Shown here: positions 1 to 5,833 of the stretch, piece after piece
Numbering within the stretch: position 1 is the first letter of the stretch
How the letters are laid out: each line of letters starts with the position of its first letter
Origin: Hyphomonas sp.
GTDB lineage: Bacteria; Pseudomonadota; Alphaproteobacteria; Caulobacterales; Hyphomonadaceae
NCBI RefSeq assembly: GCF_018402285.1
Contig: NZ_JAGYJH010000006.1
Location: 186,847-250,846 of the forward strand
Reading direction: 5' to 3'
DNA: 64,000 nt
The notes under the pieces: generated by a model
Databases searched by the model: none
Seen by the model: only the letters and a program-made list of their open reading frames with translations
Told to the model about the DNA's origin: nothing
Position numbers and translations under genes: made by a program

Positions 1-33
1 AGCCGGATCAGGAAGGATGCACCGGATCGCAAC

Positions 34-64
34 GGGCCCCGGAGCAGGGGGAACTCCGGGGCCC
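34..64. other. Strong GC-rich hairpin downstream of the TM2 gene
   Basis: An 11-bp perfect stem (GGGCCCCGGAG, 9-nt loop, CTCCGGGGCCC) lies about 35 bp beyond the stop of the minus-strand TM2 gene. Neither side has a clear T-run, so it is a transcript-end hairpin at best rather than a textbook intrinsic terminator. Confidence 0.4.
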
Positions 65-98
65 TTGGGGCGCAGCTGCGGGAGGAGAACAGCTGCGG

Positions 99-392
99 TC
101 AGTAAGCGGAGCGGCGGCGGCGCATGGCCTGGGCCGCATCGGCGCGGGCGTCTTCCATCTTCTGGTCGATGATCGCCGGGATCAGGATCAGATCGAGCAG
201 CCACCAGACAAAGCCGATGAGGAAGAAATAGCTGATGATCTGCAGGATCGCCGTGACCGGCTTGCCAAGATAGAAACGGTGGGCCGAGATCCAGCCGAGG
301 AAGAACCAGAGGAGATAGGCGGCGCCGGCGCTTTTCTTCTCATTGGCGGCGCGCTGCTCGATCAGGATCATGTCTTCGGTGGTGAAGGCCAT
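99..392 (-). CDS. TM2 domain membrane protein
   Basis: 97 aa. The central part carries the TM2-domain pattern: a first membrane segment (AYLLWFFLGWISAHRFYLG, about residues 25-44, with the family's FLG...HRFYLG turn) and a second long hydrophobic segment (about 47-75), then a charged tail ending RRRRSAY. Family members are small inner-membrane proteins of mostly unknown role. The start is supported by AGAGGAG about 9 nt upstream. The gene reads away from the mobile element, whose left end lies only about 90 bp upstream of this start codon, so the insertion may have displaced distal promoter elements. Confidence 0.85.
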   Translation of the reverse strand: MAFTTEDMILIEQRAANEKKSAGAAYLLWFFLGWISAHRFYLGKPVTAILQIISYFFLIGFVWWLLDLILIPAIIDQKMEDARADAAQAMRRRRSAY

Positions 393-473: not shown

Positions 474-481
474 CAATTTTC
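474..481. repeat. Target-site duplication, left copy
   Basis: CAATTTTC directly abuts the left inverted repeat and is repeated perfectly at 5390-5397 beyond the right end. Eight bases is the duplication length usual for IS1595-family transposition. Confidence 0.9.
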
Positions 482-515
482 CGGTATCATGGAGCATACT
501 CACCATATTTGGTGA
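482..515 (+). repeat. Left terminal inverted repeat
   Basis: Outer part CGGTATCATGGAGCA, then ACTCACC..., ending in the palindrome TCACCATATTTGGTGA. It matches the reverse complement of 5356-5389 at 33 of 34 positions (T versus A at position 16). Confidence 0.92.
500..515. promoter_or_regulatory. Palindromic operator-like site, copy 1
   Basis: TCACCATATTTGGTGA forms the inner end of the left terminal repeat. It ends 6 nt before the ATG of the 78-aa gene at 522, where a bound protein would block the ribosome-binding region or transcription start. One of five copies of TCACC-N6-GGTGA in the element. Confidence 0.7.
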
Positions 516-521
516 TTACCG

Positions 522-758
522 ATGAATGAAGATTTTCGCCCTATAACTCGATCAATGATATTGGCCGGCGCTGATGTCCTCGCCGAGCAGTGGGGAGTGA
601 TTGGCTCAGGCCCGGCCGCTGAAGAGTTGGCAGAAGCGGTATTCAAGGCGATGCTAGAAAAATCTATCGAATCGTTGGCCTCATTCGCCAATGGCCACGA
701 AGCGCACCCCGGCAGAAATACAAAAGGCGCTCGAAATTCAGAGAGCGGCGATAACTGA
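522..758 (+). CDS. Small cargo protein of unknown function
   Basis: 78 aa, not recognised. The N-terminal 55 residues look helical and protein-like (MNEDFRPITRSMILAGADVL, then an alternating AEELAEAVFKAMLEKSIESLA segment). The tail is polar and low in complexity. It is the first gene inside the left end and starts 6 nt after the terminal-repeat palindrome, so its expression may depend on whatever binds there. It overlaps the next gene in another frame by 68 nt, which is long. Either this reading frame runs on by chance past its functional part, or the downstream start is later. No clear Shine-Dalgarno sequence is visible. Confidence 0.5.
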   Translation: MNEDFRPITRSMILAGADVLAEQWGVIGSGPAAEELAEAVFKAMLEKSIESLASFANGHEAHPGRNTKGARNSESGDN

Positions 759-1317
759 TTCTTGCGCAGCATTTGACAATGGAAAAAAATGGGAGGCCCT
801 TCGGCTAGCCACTAGCGTGTACATCCTCGTTCATGATGGCGGCAAACGGAACAAGTCATTGCTGACGCAGCTTGGTGTTCGTGACCAAATGAAATTTCTA
901 TGCAGCGGTCATCAGATCGATGACAGGAACCTTACAAGCTCTAATCCGCTCGCTATGATGCATATGAGGGCATCCGAAGATCCAATGTTCGTCCCTATTC
1001 TGGACGAACATTCTGAGCGGTATCGTTGGTCATCCTTTGGCGAATGGTGGACACGAGATGCGATATTCAGCAGCGGGTCCGGCAAGAATTTGGTTTATCG
1101 AAAGAACCTTGTTTTCAATTTGAGAAACAAGGACGGCGGAGCGCACTATGACGAAACGCTGGGTGATATAGAATACCAAGAGATGGTGCGAGGCGGTGGC
1201 TGGATGATCATTAAGGGTAACCTGCCAGAGAGAGCAATGGTTGACCTTGAGCTGGTTTCTATGCGCCAAATAGCGCACGAAGTTTTAGCGAGTATAAAGC
1301 GAGCGGGTCTCGCTTAA
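691..1317 (+). CDS. Cargo protein with NKDGGAH motif, function unknown
   Basis: 208 aa. Landmarks are an N-terminal helix, VYILVHDGGKRNKSLLTQLG (about 47-66), FGEWWTRDAIF (about 116-126) and LRNKDGGAHYDETLGDIEYQ (about 147-166). The pattern of a WW-containing segment followed by N-x-DGGAH resembles an uncharacterised protein family I recall from scattered bacterial genomes; I know of no assigned activity. No signal peptide or membrane segment is evident, so it is probably cytoplasmic. The start is uncertain because it lies inside the 522-758 frame without a strong ribosome-binding site. Codon use is less GC-biased than chromosomal neighbours, as expected for imported DNA. Confidence 0.7.
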   Translation: MATKRTPAEIQKALEIQRAAITDSCAAFDNGKKWEALRLATSVYILVHDGGKRNKSLLTQLGVRDQMKFLCSGHQIDDRNLTSSNPLAMMHMRASEDPMFVPILDEHSERYRWSSFGEWWTRDAIFSSGSGKNLVYRKNLVFNLRNKDGGAHYDETLGDIEYQEMVRGGGWMIIKGNLPERAMVDLELVSMRQIAHEVLASIKRAGLA

Positions 1318-1319
1318 GC

Positions 1320-1604
1320 CTAGATTTCATCGTCCAGCGCGTCGATGCACTGAAGAAGAAACGCCGCAGAAAAGCCCCCCCTGCTAATTTTGTTCTCCAG
1401 TCCCCGAGCGCTTATCTCTATGCCCATGGAGTTGAGCTTGTCCGCCAGCGACTGGTAATCGTTGTCCGTCTTTTTCAGCTTGGCCCGCAAGAGTTCCTTT
1501 GCGCGCTCCTCATAATGCGCATTTATCGGCAACGCTTTGCGTTCCTGCGGCATCGGCGGCAATGCCCGCTTGGGCTTGGGCTTGGGCTTGGTTTTGACGG
1601 CCAT
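1320..1604 (-). CDS. DUF6471 domain protein
   Basis: 94 aa from the ATG at 1602-1604. A longer in-frame extension to 1763 would run across both upstream palindromes and is unlikely. The N-terminus is a K/P-rich tail (MAVKTKPKPKPKR). The rest, RAKELLRAKLKKTDNDYQSL followed by LADKLNSMGIEISARGLENK, fits DUF6471, a short helical HTH-like domain. By its fold it may bind DNA, which makes it a candidate for the factor that reads the palindromes upstream of its own gene (inference). It is divergent from the transposase gene across a roughly 150-bp region holding two palindromes. It ends convergently 3 bp from the 691-1317 gene. Confidence 0.75.
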   Translation of the reverse strand: MAVKTKPKPKPKRALPPMPQERKALPINAHYEERAKELLRAKLKKTDNDYQSLADKLNSMGIEISARGLENKISRGGFSAAFLLQCIDALDDEI

Positions 1605-1621
1605 GGGCGCCTCCAACAAAA

Positions 1622-1637
1622 TCACCTGATTTGGTGA
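1622..1637. promoter_or_regulatory. Palindromic operator-like site, copy 2
   Basis: TCACCTGATTTGGTGA, 17 nt upstream of the DUF6471 start codon on the minus strand. Both half-sites TCACC and GGTGA are exact; the six central bases differ most from the other copies. Confidence 0.65.
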
Positions 1638-1678
1638 AATACCACTTGACGCCCTGCCGGTCCAGCCATATCTAGAAA

Positions 1679-1694
1679 TCACCAAATATGGTGA
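1679..1694. promoter_or_regulatory. Palindromic operator-like site, copy 3
   Basis: TCACCAAATATGGTGA, identical to the copy in the right terminal repeat. It sits in the shared promoter region between the divergent DUF6471 and transposase genes, 57 bp from copy 2. A protein bound here could repress both directions. Confidence 0.7.
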
Positions 1695-1755
1695 TAAATA
1701 TGGCGCAGCACTTCGTTCACTCCCCGCCGCGAAAACGCTCTCGCTCGCCAAGGTT

Positions 1756-2661
1756 TTGCGCATGTCGGACCAGGATGCAGAGAAAGCGTTCCGCGCGATC
1801 CGCTGGGCTGAAACAGATGGCGAGCCGGTCTGTCCTGAGTGCGGTTGCCTTGAACACTACAACCTGAAGAGCCGCCCTGTCTGGAAATGCAAGGGCTGCG
1901 CAAAGCAGTTCAGCCTGACGAGCGGCACCATCTTCCACAGCCGCAAGCTGAGCCTGCGCGATATTCTCGGCGCCATCGCCATCTTCACCAACGGCGCCAA
2001 GGGATACTCCGCCCTCCAACTGTCCCGCGATCTGTGTGTTGATTACAAAACCGCTTTCGTCATGCTGCACAAGTGCCGCGAGGCGATAGCGCTGGCTCGT
2101 CAGGAAGGCGCCCTAAGCGGCAACGTTGAAGTCGATGGCGCTTACTTCGGTGGCTATGTGAAGCCCGCCAACAATCGCGCTGACCGCACAGACCGCCGCC
2201 GCAAAATCAACCAGTCTGGCAAGCGCCAGGTCATCATCGCCGTGCGTGAGCGTGAAGGCCGTACACTGACGGCCGTTGCTGCGTCGGAAGCAGAAGGCGT
2301 TGCCGTTGTCCGCGAGAACGTCGCCGCTGGCTCTACCGTCCACGCTGACGAGGCTTCGCATTGGGACAAGCTGGCGGCTCACTTCCCCATAAAGCGGATA
2401 AATCACAAGCAGCACTATTCGCATGACGGCGCCTGCACCAACCAAGCCGAGAGCTTCTTCAGCCGCGTTCGCCGCTCTGAGATCGGTATACACCACCACA
2501 TCGCAGGCAAGTACCTCTCTGCCTATGCAACAGAGCTTGCATGGCGTGAGGACGCTCGCCGCGTCTCCAATGGCAACCAGTTCGCCATGCTGGTCAGCGC
2601 GGCCGCTGTTGCACCGAAGTCTGCCGCTTGGTGCGGATATTGGCAGCGCCACTCAGCCTGA
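1756..2661 (+). CDS. IS1595-family transposase
   Basis: 299 aa from the ATG at 1762; a TTG at 1756 adds two residues. The frame is open back to 1630 and the upstream translation (AALRSLPAAKTLSLAKVLR) looks protein-like, so a longer product from a rarer start is possible. Counting from ATG 1762: an N-terminal zinc ribbon with C24-P-E-C27 and C43-K-G-C46, then the ISXO2-like DDE core with D125 in VEVDGAYFGG, D196 in VHADEASHWD, and TNQAESFFS (N227/E230) followed by a long helix. All expected catalytic landmarks are present, so it is probably active. It is the only recombinase gene in the element and presumably acts on the 34-bp ends. Confidence 0.93.
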   Translation: MRMSDQDAEKAFRAIRWAETDGEPVCPECGCLEHYNLKSRPVWKCKGCAKQFSLTSGTIFHSRKLSLRDILGAIAIFTNGAKGYSALQLSRDLCVDYKTAFVMLHKCREAIALARQEGALSGNVEVDGAYFGGYVKPANNRADRTDRRRKINQSGKRQVIIAVREREGRTLTAVAASEAEGVAVVRENVAAGSTVHADEASHWDKLAAHFPIKRINHKQHYSHDGACTNQAESFFSRVRRSEIGIHHHIAGKYLSAYATELAWREDARRVSNGNQFAMLVSAAAVAPKSAAWCGYWQRHSA

Positions 2662-2970
2662 TGTAAAGGCAGAGGTGAATGGGATATCCCATCCATGGAA
2701 GAGAGAAAAATGGGATATTCGGTGACGGCCTGTATCGCAAAGTGCAACAAAAAGAGGACGAGAAGAACAATAACAAGAGAACAGTCAAAAGTGCGATATC
2801 ATAGGAAATCCTAGATCAAGAAACGCGGCAGTTGCCACAGGCGCGAATCTAAGGCAGAAATGAAAAGAGCCCGGACGTTTAACCGCCGTCAGGCGGCCCG
2901 TCCGGGCTCAAAAATCGGGTCAACGCTTTGTCGCCAAACTGCGCGAAGACCCGTCATAGGAGCTTGATTC
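2662..2970. other. Non-coding stretch with palindrome and nested hairpin
   Basis: 309 bp without a convincing gene. It contains a perfect palindrome ATGGGATATCCCAT (2679-2692) with a partial repeat ATGGGATATTC from 2710. It also contains a nested hairpin: GAGCCCGGACG at 2867-2877 pairs with 2899-2909, enclosing CCGCC/GGCGG at 2883-2896. On the minus strand the outer stem is followed by TTTTCATTT, so it could terminate minus-strand transcripts. On the plus strand it lies about 60 bp before the next gene, where it could act as a leader structure. Confidence 0.5.
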
Positions 2971-3516
2971 ATGTCAGATTTTGACGATTCTGTCAACAAG
3001 ATCATCGCCCTTTTGGAGCGTTCCAAAAAGGTGCACGAAGACCGCGGCGACCGCGAAAGAGCGGTTGAGCAGGCTCGCCTTGCGCAAGACCTCAGGGCCT
3101 ACCAGCGAGAGTTCCATCGTTTAGAGGAATTGCTGAAACCCATTCCTGTGTATGAGGGAGAGGACCTCTCGGACCTCCCGAAGGAGCTTCGCGCAGAACT
3201 GAGTGTCTCCAAAACGGATGAACTTGAGGATCAGCTCGCCACCGTAATTAATGCGGCGGGCCGTGAGGCCGACATCGACATGATCCTTATTTACCTGTTT
3301 CGAAAATTCAACGTAGTCCAAACGCGCCGTTTTCTGCAAAACAAGCTGTACCGGATGGTTCAAAAGGGCCTGCTGTATTCCGTGCCGGGCCGTAAAGGCG
3401 TTTATTCAACCTTGAAGCCAGATGAGCCGAACGAGACCTTTGTAGATACTCCGCAACTCGGCGGGAAACAGGTTTCGTCATCGTCCACAATGGACGATGA
3501 CGAAGTACCATTTTGA
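2971..3516 (+). CDS. Cargo protein with winged-helix-like C-terminal region
   Basis: 181 aa, family not recognised. The N-terminal 60 residues are highly charged and helical, probably coiled coil (KKVHEDRGDRERAVEQARLA). Residues about 95-140 (ADIDMILIYLFRKFNVVQTR, then QNKLYRMVQKGLLYSVPGRKGVY) look like a winged-helix unit with a C-terminal basic wing. The tail ends with serines and an acidic DDDE. It lies alone on the plus strand after a 309-bp gap. A DNA-binding or replication-accessory role is a guess from shape only. Confidence 0.65.
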   Translation: MSDFDDSVNKIIALLERSKKVHEDRGDRERAVEQARLAQDLRAYQREFHRLEELLKPIPVYEGEDLSDLPKELRAELSVSKTDELEDQLATVINAAGREADIDMILIYLFRKFNVVQTRRFLQNKLYRMVQKGLLYSVPGRKGVYSTLKPDEPNETFVDTPQLGGKQVSSSSTMDDDEVPF

Positions 3517-3745
3517 GGAGGTGGTCCATCATGCCGATATAACAACCCTGGTCTAAGTGGGTCTCGTACACCCGCTTAGGTCAGCAGTCGCCACCAAGGG
3601 CGGCAGGGGCTGGGGGCCTCGGCTCTCAGTCCCACCTGTCACTAACCGATGACCGCTCAGCGGACATCACAAGCACATTGTATGTGATTCATTCTTACGA
3701 ATCCGTCAACCCGCTGATCGGTCGCAGTCTTCAGAAAGGAAGACG
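3517..3745 (+). ncRNA. Candidate structured RNA or leader between two cargo genes
   Basis: 229 bp with unusually dense potential stems on the plus strand. CTAAGTGGGT pairs with ACCCGCTTAG through a 7-nt loop (about 3553-3579); GTCGCC pairs with GGCGGC (about 3588-3605); CCGCTCAGCGG is a near-palindrome at about 3652; CACA-N5-TGTG and GATTC...GAATC follow. The final CCGCTGATCGG (about 3712-3722) can compete with the earlier CCGCTCAGCGG region. It leads directly into the 63-aa gene at 3746, itself followed by a strong terminator, so it may be a leader RNA or a separate small RNA. No reverse transcriptase is nearby, so it is not an obvious retron. Confidence 0.4.
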
Positions 3746-3937
3746 ATGAAAGACCGTAAGGTAACGCCGGACATGGTGCCGGTGATCAAATTGGCACGGG
3801 TGAGGAAGTACAACTACGCGCGTATCGCTTCGTACTTCCAGATCAACCAAGGCCGGATCGCAGACGTGATGAAGGGGCGCCTGTTCCCTGAAATTCCGCC
3901 TGCGAGTGACCTGCCCTCGGACTTCCCGATGGCATAA
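3746..3937 (+). CDS. Small HTH-like protein
   Basis: 63 aa. Residues about 13-45 (VIKLARVRKYNYARIASYFQ, then INQGRIADVMKGRLFPEIPP) follow the pattern of short helix-turn-helix proteins in which a sensing helix is followed by an NQGRIA...G recognition helix. Similar tiny HTH proteins are scattered through alphaproteobacterial accessory regions. GAAAGGAAG gives a good ribosome-binding site 5-8 nt before the ATG. A strong intrinsic terminator follows within 10 bp, so the unit ends here. Another candidate for binding the TCACC-N6-GGTGA sites. Confidence 0.7.
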   Translation: MKDRKVTPDMVPVIKLARVRKYNYARIASYFQINQGRIADVMKGRLFPEIPPASDLPSDFPMA

Positions 3938-3945
3938 GCAACCGG

Positions 3946-3973
3946 AAGGGCGGCAATGCGCCGCCCTTTTTTT
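3946..3973 (+). terminator. Intrinsic terminator
   Basis: AAGGGCGGC, loop AATGC, GCCGCCCTT followed by an unbroken T-run. It ends the 63-aa HTH gene and lies between convergent genes. The minus strand has no T-run after the stem, so it works in one direction. Confidence 0.9.
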
Positions 3974-3991
3974 GCCCTTTGGCTTGTTCGA

Positions 3992-4489
3992 CTACGGCGC
4001 TAGTGCGGCTTCAATATCTTTGCGAGATATGAACATGTCAGTGCTTGACCTGCCTCTTGGTTTCGTTCGTTCGAAGCCTAAGCGCCGATAAAACTCGCAC
4101 GTAGCCTCATCAATTGCCGTTAGCCAAAGGCAGTGAACGCCAACGTGCTGTGAAATGGCAATCGTCCTGTGAAAGGCATCCACCATCATGGTGGTGCCCA
4201 GCTTGTTGCCGCGACATTTTTCAGTGACTCCCAAATTATCGAAGTAGATACCAGGAACGTTATCGAGGTGGTATTTAATGCCCTTTTTGCGGGGAAGCGC
4301 TTGAATAGATAAACTGTATATTCCTGCAACTATATCATCGCCAGCAGTAGCAACGAATACTTTGCATTGACCCTTATCATTATGGGACAATGAGTTTCGT
4401 CGGCACCATTTGTCTATTGGTTCGAAGCCACAAAAAAATTTATTTCTGTCGTGCTTTGCGCTCAATGCTGAAATTGAGAAGGCCGTCAC
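3992..4489 (-). CDS. GNAT acetyltransferase, TacT-like toxin candidate
   Basis: 165 aa from a GTG start. The opening FFCGFEPIDKWCRRNSLSHN matches the F-x-C-G...L-D-x-W-L entry seen in TacT/AtaT-type GNAT toxins. CRGNKLGTTMMVDAF (about 92-106) is the acetyl-CoA pyrophosphate loop (R-G-x-x-L-G), and CEFYRRLGFE (about 129-138) supplies the conserved tyrosine near the C-terminus. Family toxins of this size (about 160 aa) acetylate aminoacyl-tRNA. It lies 18 bp behind a 59-aa gene, the usual antitoxin-then-toxin order, although that partner is not the common DUF1778 type. No better upstream start exists in frame. Confidence 0.8.
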   Translation of the reverse strand: MTAFSISALSAKHDRNKFFCGFEPIDKWCRRNSLSHNDKGQCKVFVATAGDDIVAGIYSLSIQALPRKKGIKYHLDNVPGIYFDNLGVTEKCRGNKLGTTMMVDAFHRTIAISQHVGVHCLWLTAIDEATCEFYRRLGFERTKPRGRSSTDMFISRKDIEAALAP

Positions 4490-4507
4490 AGAGCACAGTT
4501 CACAGTT

Positions 4508-4687
4508 CTACGCGGGCACTCTAGTTAGACGCGCCATGCCATCAGCAACAAACTTCTTAAGTTCGTCATTGGCCTTGCCAGCCTCAGCGCAGCGAGCGGC
4601 AACGGCTTTCAGCTCCCTGGCTGTTAGCTTAGTTGCTTTGGGTTTCGCGCGCGAAAGAACGCGAATTTTAAGCTTAGGCTTTGCCAT
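4508..4687 (-). CDS. Small basic protein, possible antitoxin partner of the GNAT
   Basis: 59 aa from the ATG at 4685-4687, chosen because AAGGAGG lies at ideal distance upstream; an in-frame ATG at 4711 lacks this. Basic N-terminus (MAKPKLKIRVLSRAKPKATK) then a helix-rich section (LTARELKAVAARCAEAGKAN, DELKKFVADGMARL). No match to DUF1778 or classic ribbon-helix-helix antitoxins. An inverted repeat ATGT-N5-ACAT lies just upstream, suitable for autoregulation. Function inferred only from position ahead of the GNAT gene. Confidence 0.6.
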   Translation of the reverse strand: MAKPKLKIRVLSRAKPKATKLTARELKAVAARCAEAGKANDELKKFVADGMARLTRVPA

Positions 4688-4856
4688 ATTGCGCCTCCTT
4701 CCTTGGAACATGATGTGAAATACATGATATCAAGAAAGAACCTAGTCAACATCGGGTTGACAAAGGCAAAAATTTGGTGTACGAGCCACGTGCTCTTGCT
4801 CGGTTGAGCAGTGACCCGCTAAGTGAGCGCCCAAATTAGCATAAAAATTTTCGTGA

Positions 4857-5318
4857 TCACGAACTTTGAATCCGCCAAAGCTTATACGGCCCGTTCGCAT
4901 CGTGATCCGTGGTCTGCCCCACGTCTTCCAGCAGCCCCTGATTTACGCTCGCCTTGATGCACGAGCTAATGCGGCGGCGCATGGCGTTGATGGTCGTCTC
5001 GTTGGGCTCATAGCCACACTCATGCGTCCACAGCTCGGCAAGCTGGCGCGAAGTCATCGGCCCTGAGGACTCCCGCAGGGTGTTCAGAACGAACCGCTTT
5101 ATGCTGCCCTTCTTGGCCCGGTTATGGTTGTTCGGCTTGCTCCTGACGATACTGGCCTTGGGGTCCAGGATCAGGATTGCCTCTGAGATGTGGTAGAGGT
5201 GGAGCGTGAGCCTCTTCACAGCCTCGCGGTGCTCCTCCAGCGCAAGGCTTAGCTCGCGCTGCTTGGCGATGAGACCTGCAACGGTCAGCTCGCGGTCAAA
5301 TACGGTTTCTTGTTCCAT
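4857..5318 (-). CDS. Cargo protein with coiled coil and winged-helix-like region
   Basis: 153 aa. Residues about 14-45 form a probable coiled coil (LIAKQRELSLALEEHREAVK). Residues about 68-150 have a winged-helix order: KKGSIKRFVLNTLRESSGPM, SRQLAELWTHECG, TTINAMRRRISSCIKASVNQ, GLLEDVG, PYKLWRI. Such architecture suits a DNA-binding protein. Two palindromes lie upstream of its start (9 nt and 37 nt away), one of them inside the right terminal repeat. A regulator of the palindromes, or a transposition accessory factor, is plausible but unproven. Confidence 0.7.
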   Translation of the reverse strand: MEQETVFDRELTVAGLIAKQRELSLALEEHREAVKRLTLHLYHISEAILILDPKASIVRSKPNNHNRAKKGSIKRFVLNTLRESSGPMTSRQLAELWTHECGYEPNETTINAMRRRISSCIKASVNQGLLEDVGQTTDHDANGPYKLWRIQSS

Positions 5319-5327
5319 GACGGCAAT

Positions 5328-5343
5328 TCACCATAAAAGGTGA
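5328..5343. promoter_or_regulatory. Palindromic operator-like site, copy 4
   Basis: TCACCATAAAAGGTGA, 9 nt upstream of the start codon of the 153-aa gene and 28 bp (start to start) from the copy in the right terminal repeat. That is under three helical turns, suitable for cooperative binding. Confidence 0.65.
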
Positions 5344-5355
5344 GTTTACGTCAAG

Positions 5356-5389
5356 TCACCAAATATGGTGAGTTTGCTCCATGATACCG
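5356..5389 (-). repeat. Right terminal inverted repeat
   Basis: Reverse complement of 482-515 at 33 of 34 positions. Its inner 16 bases (5356-5371, TCACCAAATATGGTGA) are the fifth copy of the palindrome and a perfect match to the copy at 1679. Confidence 0.92.
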
Positions 5390-5397
5390 CAATTTTC
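5390..5397. repeat. Target-site duplication, right copy
   Basis: CAATTTTC, a perfect match to 474-481. Removing 482-5397 restores a plausible uninterrupted intergenic sequence. Confidence 0.9.
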
Positions 5398-5467
5398 TTC
5401 GGGCGGTCCACAAAAGGAAAAAGGCGGCGGCCGAAGCCACCGCCCTGATTCCAGTTACCGGCGGGGA

Positions 5468-5833
5468 CTATAGCCAGTAGGGCTGGACCTTGTAGTAGGT
5501 GTAGGCCGCGTCGCGGGCCGCGTGGCCGTCATTCTTGGTCAGCTCTTCGATCGAATCGGCCGGGGCCTTTTCCAGCTGTTCCTTGCTGAAGGGAACAACG
5601 TAACCTTCCTTGTCCTTGCTGTAGTCGAGGGTCGACCACGGGACGGGATGGAACTTCTCCCCCATGCCGAGGAAGCCGCCAAAGCCGACAACGGCGTAGA
5701 GGATCGAATTGTCGGTCTTGTCGAGCATCACGTCTTCGACCTTGCCGATCTTGTCGCCGGCAGTGTTGTAGACGGATGTGCCGATGGTGCGGCTGGCGGG
5801 AATAGCGGTTGTGTGTCCGGTCGTGGTGGGCAT
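5468..5833 (-). CDS. PRC-barrel domain protein
   Basis: 121 aa from the ATG at 5831-5833, which has AGAGGAGG at proper spacing; a longer in-frame start at 5884 lacks it. Residues about 15-85 make a PRC-barrel: SRTIGTSVYNTAGDKIGKVE, DVMLDKTDNSILYAVVGFGG, HPVPWSTLDY. Stand-alone PRC-barrel proteins of this size are common in alphaproteobacteria and are often stress-induced; the ligand is unknown. No signal peptide. The mobile element is inserted beyond the 3' side of this gene, so its own promoter should be intact. Confidence 0.88.
   Translation of the reverse strand: MPTTTGHTTAIPASRTIGTSVYNTAGDKIGKVEDVMLDKTDNSILYAVVGFGGFLGMGEKFHPVPWSTLDYSKDKEGYVVPFSKEQLEKAPADSIEELTKNDGHAARDAAYTYYKVQPYWL

Follow-up and report, generated by a model that had tools for sequence, protein, structure and literature searches.

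The window analysed here, a stretch of 64,000 nucleotides from Hyphomonas sp. (contig NZ_JAGYJH010000006.1, forward strand, positions 186,847 to 250,846), carries near its start a mobile element of 4,908 bp (window positions 482-5389) that comprises a transposase gene, a gene for a protein of the DUF6471 family, a winged-helix gene at the right end (WHR), further variable genes, five copies of a short palindrome and a structured RNA region (Table 1). The element is bounded by inverted repeats of 34 bp with a single mismatch and flanked at both ends by the 8-bp target duplication CAATTTTC; GCAATTTTC is common to both sides and leaves the edge ambiguous by one base. In 200,000 random pairings of positions, full agreement over 8 bp came up at a rate of 6e-5. 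The source genome holds a single copy of the element. In the available part of PMC8101967 the IS1595 family is defined by a DDE_Tnp_IS1595 domain with an N-terminal zinc ribbon, and both are recognised in the transposase by Pfam and NCBIfam profiles (PF12762, 8.7e-42; PF12760, 1.4e-12; NF033547, 2.8e-45); the D, D and E residues are invariant in an alignment of five transposases, and the 8-bp duplication is that of the family. Passenger genes lie inside the inverted ends of one unit of the insertion sequence (IS) type, which is what the accessible portions of PMC9330008 and PMC11891212 call a transporter IS (tIS). The window unit is a tIS of the IS1595 family; the ends, duplication and family membership given in a preliminary description of this DNA are correct.

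Table 1. Features of the element, in window positions.
Feature	Position	Strand	Remark
Left target duplication copy, 8 bp, CAATTTTC	474..481	no strand	
Left terminal inverted repeat	482..515	+	contains operator palindrome 1 (500-515)
78-aa open reading frame (ORF) just inside left end	522..758	+	gene status uncertain; no Pfam/NCBIfam family
Left-bay cargo, 208 aa ('NKDGGAH' protein)	691..1317	+	
DUF6471 protein, probable operator-binding repressor	1320..1607	-	start codon uncertain; PF20075 3.2e-23
Operator palindrome 2	1622..1637	no strand	15 nt before DUF6471 start
Operator palindrome 3	1679..1694	no strand	just before conserved transposase start (ATG 1700)
IS1595-family transposase, open frame	1756..2661	+	segment from ATG 1700 out of frame here
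Right-bay cargo, 181 aa	2971..3516	+	winged-helix label unverified
Structured leader RNA	3546..3748	+	5' part (P1-P4) about 3546-3648; no Rfam match
63-aa small protein	3746..3937	+	HTH-like label unverified
GNAT acetyltransferase	3992..4489	-	PF13508 2.4e-7
67-aa ORF adjoining GNAT gene	4508..4711	-	
WHR, right-end winged-helix core gene	4857..5318	-	reads inward
Operator palindrome 4	5328..5343	no strand	just before WHR start
Right terminal inverted repeat	5356..5389	-	contains operator palindrome 5 (5356-5371)
Right target duplication copy, 8 bp	5390..5397	no strand	

Related elements were sought through WHR or DUF6471, so that the sample is biased towards those genes. Among 71 loci examined, ends with a perfect duplication were found in 49, corresponding to 48 distinct elements (that of the window and 47 others; L327 repeats L172 and is counted once) of 1.8-6.3 kb with 40 different duplications. 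A near-perfect duplication was part of the acceptance rule, and its occurrence in 48/48 is therefore not independent. The remaining 22 loci gave no ends, being at contig edges, DUF6471-only or weak matches, or perhaps bearing other end types. Such ends and gene sets thus recur elsewhere with differing duplications, which is the check that the preliminary description had proposed. DUF6471 lies divergently beside the transposase gene in 46 of the 48 elements, that is, in all 46 having both genes; WHR is present in 42, six elements being without WHR and two without DUF6471. By hidden Markov model, all three core genes are found in 40/48, with one order and strand pattern in 39 of these (L316 differs). 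Three of the elements kept among the 48 are short through internal deletion and retain their ends and a perfect duplication (L290:154-1947, L259:5275-7148 and L252:6403-8816); they perhaps moved in trans.

The association appears from either gene. A scan of genome contigs with WHR gave 15 loci. Inverted ends flanked by a perfect 8-bp duplication were identified in 14, and the other (L169) is cut by a contig edge; DUF6471 and the transposase gene accompany WHR in all 15, in the same order and on the same strands as in the window. A DUF6471 search of family f17 matched 37/249 genomes, and the transposase gene adjoins in 26 of the 36 loci fetched (L290-L325) on DUF6471 alone, the ten others being L291, L312 and the eight weakest, L318-L325. 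In 16 source genomes DUF6471 occurs 18 times, 16 of them in these elements, once in another intact element (L326) and once in a broken copy; none of 14 control genomes contained it. No WHR relatives were found in viral contigs or in plasmid or phage sets; at least 120 stretches of the viral contigs match a 14-mer pattern of the ends, most probably by chance for so short a pattern. The WHR gene carried by L175, an element of Rhizobium, is divided between two frames. DUF6471 and WHR are a conserved core and not cargo, and the genes between them vary. What the preliminary description presented as multi-gene cargo is accordingly confined to the genes of the two bays, DUF6471 and WHR being excluded from it, and its inference that the cargo is one transferring system needs correction: the bay genes are interchangeable between elements and form no single co-inherited set.

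The palindrome TCACC-N6-GGTGA occurs five times in the element: once in each end, twice in the gap between DUF6471 and the transposase gene, and once at the start of WHR. The 3.04-Mb genome has 21 such sites, 5 of them inside these 4.9 kb. The layout recurs, with other half-sites, in all 17 elements whose ends are of the TATGGMGCA type (L169 and 16 of the 48); their operators fall into types A (TCACC), B (TAACC), C (CATC) and one type D. The outer half-site in the end is TCACC in 15/17 (not in L161 and L155), and the inner half follows the promoter sites. In a swap test on these 17 elements, the inner part of the end agreed better with the element's own promoter region (11.56 of 14 positions) than with those of others (10.44; p=5e-5), whereas the outer part gave 8.47 against 8.46 (p=0.50) and positions 60-74 gave p=0.33. 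The same test on 44 elements, a selection that proved too lenient (p=5e-5, with a segment further in also at p=4e-4), was set aside, as was a -35/-10 scan of the promoter gaps, which was inconsistent. Parvularcula has both L172 and L326, whose palindromes differ.

The operators most closely follow DUF6471. In Mantel tests, operator distance correlated with DUF6471 distance (r=0.383, p=0.0012), and the correlation survived correction for the transposase (0.329, p=0.006), the transposase corrected for DUF6471 giving 0.228 (p=0.09). The fewest changes of operator type needed on trees were 3 for DUF6471, which is the minimum, 5 for the transposase and 6 for WHR, on trees in which many branches are weakly supported and with types set by eye. 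In the pairs L161/L163 and L174/L170, the transposases are 90 and 89% and the WHR proteins 82 and 88% identical, but the DUF6471 proteins only 44 and 43%, and the operator types differ; a long nucleotide match begins at the transposase gene start in both. Judged from these alignments, a DUF6471/operator cassette looks to have been exchanged at the transposase start in the two pairs. Moreover, the residues preceding the conserved NK(I/V) of DUF6471 vary by type, being ARGLE in 5/6 type A rows, SGGVA or VGGVA in type B and ERNLA-like in type C. The structure model of DUF6471 is a four-helix helix-turn-helix (HTH) fold (pLDDT 82.6), for which the best VIA rows were POU-specific and XRE domains (Z 9.4, root-mean-square deviation 2.2, 69 residues); no XRE Pfam family was found in the protein. 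DUF6471 is thus probably a repressor that binds the operators, as both the sequence comparisons and the model suggest.

The palindromes could instead be read by WHR, with DUF6471 merely travelling with the promoter. In favour of this, WHR belongs to the conserved core, its gene has a palindrome at the start, and its structure model is a winged helix, for which PadR is best in Foldseek (E 7e-4, TMq 0.40). Operator sequence, however, does not track WHR distance (r=-0.033, p=0.54), and operators differ between L161 and L162, whose WHR proteins are 85% identical, just as they do in L174/L170. Together with the six type changes on the WHR tree, this makes WHR an improbable reader and a disfavoured candidate.

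Several points weigh against this account of DUF6471 and its operators. The operator types were labelled by eye, L155 and L248 among them. The 14 nt inward of the operator also match the element's own promoter region better than others' (9.59 against 9.06, p=7e-4), and part of the operator signal may for this reason be relatedness. Operator distance is positively correlated with transposase distance as well (r=0.304, p=0.038), and in both exchange pairs a match of 66-68 bp at about 76% persists inside DUF6471. For a small helical domain a VIA Z of 9.4 is moderate, and the DUF6471 model had no Foldseek PDB match at E<=0.001. In the group with TATGTAGCA ends, palindromes are present in the promoter gap and not in the ends, so masking of the ends cannot be general. 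Some of these points would fit a reading in which the transposase or a host factor binds the palindromes, with the agreement within elements arising only because adjacent stretches of DNA are inherited together: the ends, to which the transposase has to bind, hold two of the five sites, the control segment inward of the operator agrees too, and the transposase correlation is positive. Yet the operator type changes in two pairs while the transposase stays 89-90% identical, agreement of this sort is absent from the outer part of the ends, and the DUF6471 correlation persists when the transposase is allowed for; we therefore give this explanation only a small chance, and retain DUF6471 as the probable operator-binding protein.

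Mobility of the element is documented by empty sites, the occurrence of which the preliminary description had proposed to look for. Immediately before window position 1, and separated from it by a gap of 10 N, the contig (C6:185828-186836) repeats the 481-bp left flank at 100% identity, followed by a single CAATTTTC and then by 86 bp that match the right flank (5398-5483) exactly. The empty site beside the filled one is most simply explained by a mixed population left unmerged by the assembler, and may alternatively reflect tandem duplication or excision. The flanks are also found together without the element in five relatives of the same genus, with one alignment running across the junction in L194, L197 and L198 and the flank matches about 40 nt apart in L195 and L196. 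The same element was met in the WHR scan on contigs of Hyphomonas sp. CY54-11-8 and H. atlantica. Transposase relatives on plasmids number 256 records, all less than 60% identical. In the 16 elements with TATGGMGCA-type ends taken from the 48, the duplication has G at position 1 in 13/16 and C at position 8 in 14/16, and its two central positions, 4 and 5, are A or T in 16/16.

The window copy itself was called intact, which is true of its ends and duplication but not of its transposase gene. In comparison with relatives, a frameshift separates ATG 1700, the conserved start, from the zinc ribbon; the open frame starts at TTG 1756 or ATG 1762, so that translation from ATG 1700 would not give the complete protein. 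This frameshift near the start also counts against the explanation favoured below, and the copy might be a dead relic that has lost its transposase start and whose cargo is drifting. We consider this rather unlikely, for the ends and duplication are intact, the empty allele with identical flanks in the same assembly points to recent movement, an internal transposase start remains, and the frameshift is possibly a sequencing error.

The hairpin-rich region noted in the preliminary description is real and conserved. Its fold recurs upstream of the 63-aa gene: in an unfitted alignment of eight sequences 89.6% of cells pair and 20/47 pairs show double changes, a level reached by none of 500 shuffles, structures slid along the alignment giving 35-51%. 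With 14 sequences aligned to the model, an alignment that leans towards the structure to which it was fitted, pairing rises to 91.4% and double changes to 31/47 pairs (0/500 shuffles as high; slid structures 36-52%). Rfam gave no match to the RNA; matches to 6C and ar14 near window positions 28-103 (E 0.32 and 0.56) are below cut-offs and lie outside the element. The R1 model matched 7/299 genomes of the order, 1/385 of the class (the window's own) and, weakly in each case, 3/249 of f17; one f17 RNA match (L341) was not used, its context having no transposase match. A chance fold of G+C-rich DNA or a simple terminator would suit the position between genes, the single R1 match among the class genomes and the lack of R1 or R2 matches in L164 and L174, both of which have the 63-aa gene. 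The double changes in both alignments, which neither shuffled nor slid controls approach, make such an explanation very improbable.

The R2 model, which covers the 5' part and was built from 12 sequences including L249-L251, matched 8/264 genomes of the order and has double changes in 20/28 pairs (a fitted count). R2 recurs in a second IS1595 lineage in which no DUF6471 match was found (L249, L250, L251, L339 and L340, the last two found independently with R2). The ends of this lineage are GGCRATTATCCCGTTGACATACC, with a variant in L251 and one end seen in L340; duplications match in L249, L250 and L339, and L251 has end matches with no perfect duplication. Behind the RNA lies a gene for NYN (L249, L250), DUF3800 (L339) or PemK (L340). 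A DUF5343 gene, over cut-off, precedes the RNA in L249, L250 and L252, but in L168, L172 and L340 the preceding neighbour is on the other strand, and thus the RNA does not need the DUF5343 gene. From its position, the leader RNA probably controls the gene placed behind it.

The cargo is diverse. Relatives of the 208-aa protein are found in 23/72,556 plasmid records, all less than 60% identical, and relatives of the 63-aa protein in 13/48 elements, plus L169. The 181-aa protein shares 42% identity with one encoded by L165 and has no Pfam family, only a sub-threshold Rrf2 match (E 0.021). Of the two winged-helix-like proteins proposed earlier, the right-end one agrees with its structure model and the label of the 181-aa protein is unverified; so is the HTH label of the 63-aa ORF, whose sole match is a sub-threshold Sigma70_r4 (E 0.047). 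The DUF6471 and GNAT labels are upheld by the profile matches of Table 1. The GNAT protein resembles solved GNAT proteins including KacT (5zgn, 4.2e-7) and is, on this likeness, a probable toxin; the adjoining 67-aa ORF, with no Pfam/NCBIfam family above cut-off, is by its position a possible antitoxin. PADLOC reported nothing for nine window proteins. Across the elements the bays contain 124 ORFs of at least 90 aa, and among 35 chosen by eye for a Pfam search, 18 reached a family cut-off and 17 did not. SocA/Panacea cargo is found in seven elements (L156, L163, L171, L173, L248, L253 and L301), PemK in L256, DUF3800 in L164, DUF4760 in L170, ParA-like AAA_31 in L294, DUF5343 in L252, and a P63C protein in L169 with a 69% identical relative in L170. 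The cargo includes Abi_2 in L175 (PADLOC AbiD, 1.7e-64), NYN in L304 (PADLOC HEC-09) and, in L311 (L311:5027-11355, 6.3 kb), a type II restriction-modification set of C5 DNA methylase, LlaJI endonuclease and AAA_5. Several of the other cargo families are presumably toxins. Restriction-modification and AbiD thus show that entire defence units are carried by single-transposase elements in Alphaproteobacteria.

The explanation that we favour, with a probability of roughly three in four as a whole, is that of a tIS with a DUF6471, transposase and WHR core, in which DUF6471 acts on five palindromes, the DUF6471/operator cassette is swapped, the cargo aids the element's retention or the host, and an RNA controls a gene. 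It builds on what is observed: a conserved core between inverted ends, variable genes in two bays, the operator layout, the co-variation and the predicted fold. DUF6471 would be a small lambda-repressor-like DNA-binding protein that, when bound in the promoter regions, shuts down the transposase gene, WHR and its own gene, and when bound to the end palindromes of the TATGGMGCA group would mask the ends from the transposase. Elements would swap operator sequence and DUF6471 together, and the cargo, here a probable GNAT toxin, its possible antitoxin and a 208-aa protein of wide distribution, may promote retention or benefit the host. More tentatively, and as an idea that we hold somewhat less probable than not, the system could confer heteroimmunity: the DUF6471 of a resident element would silence and mask incoming copies of the same type, selection would swap the DUF6471/operator/end cassette for escape, and the folded RNA would be a docking point for swapped, controlled toxin or nuclease cargo. 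DUF6471, an uncharacterised family, gains a specific testable function from the favoured explanation, and the covariation-supported RNA, outside Rfam, is linked to interchangeable toxin- and nuclease-like cargo.

Phage immunity regions provide the closest image of such heteroimmunity, the repressor and its operators being swapped there as one cassette between otherwise similar phages. The exchange of the DUF6471/operator cassette resembles this, except that in these elements the ends themselves include operator sequence; the data point to a transposon family in which, as with phage immunity, changes in repressor specificity and in the ends go together. Among tIS, the ISNha5 group has a CGGnnTT start, a length of 3.4-7.9 kb and a DDER/K motif, features that would fit the window element as a possible member. 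The ends of the window element are CGGTATC, and those of most relatives CGGYATT. IS1595-family tIS with passenger transcription regulators, such as ISNha5, are already known (PMC11891212, in the part available), and like the window element, ISNha5 and other tIS combine an IS1595 transposase with passenger genes (PMC11891212 and PMC9330008, in part); they differ by description in that DUF6471, operators in the ends and the RNA do not appear in the portions of these sources examined. Likewise, a limited literature search, with subscription journals mostly outside its coverage, yielded no mention of DUF6471 and no description of the operators or leader RNA. Plain IS1595-type insertion sequences are of about 1 kb with one ORF (PMC11092175, accessible part); the window element shares their transposase family and 8-bp duplication and adds core genes and cargo. 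In IS1, the transposase promoter is a target of the repressor InsA, which also vies with the transposase for the two ends (PMC12428005, accessible part). A repressor at the transposase promoter and the ends is a likeness that would hold for the window element on the evidence of its sequence, but InsA and the IS1 transposase have a DNA-binding part in common, whereas DUF6471 is a separate gene with its own variable operators, and the window element is not a member of IS1. The tIS kind is known; a probable element-encoded repressor with its likely operators in both ends and promoters, together with the RNA, is new as far as this limited search shows.

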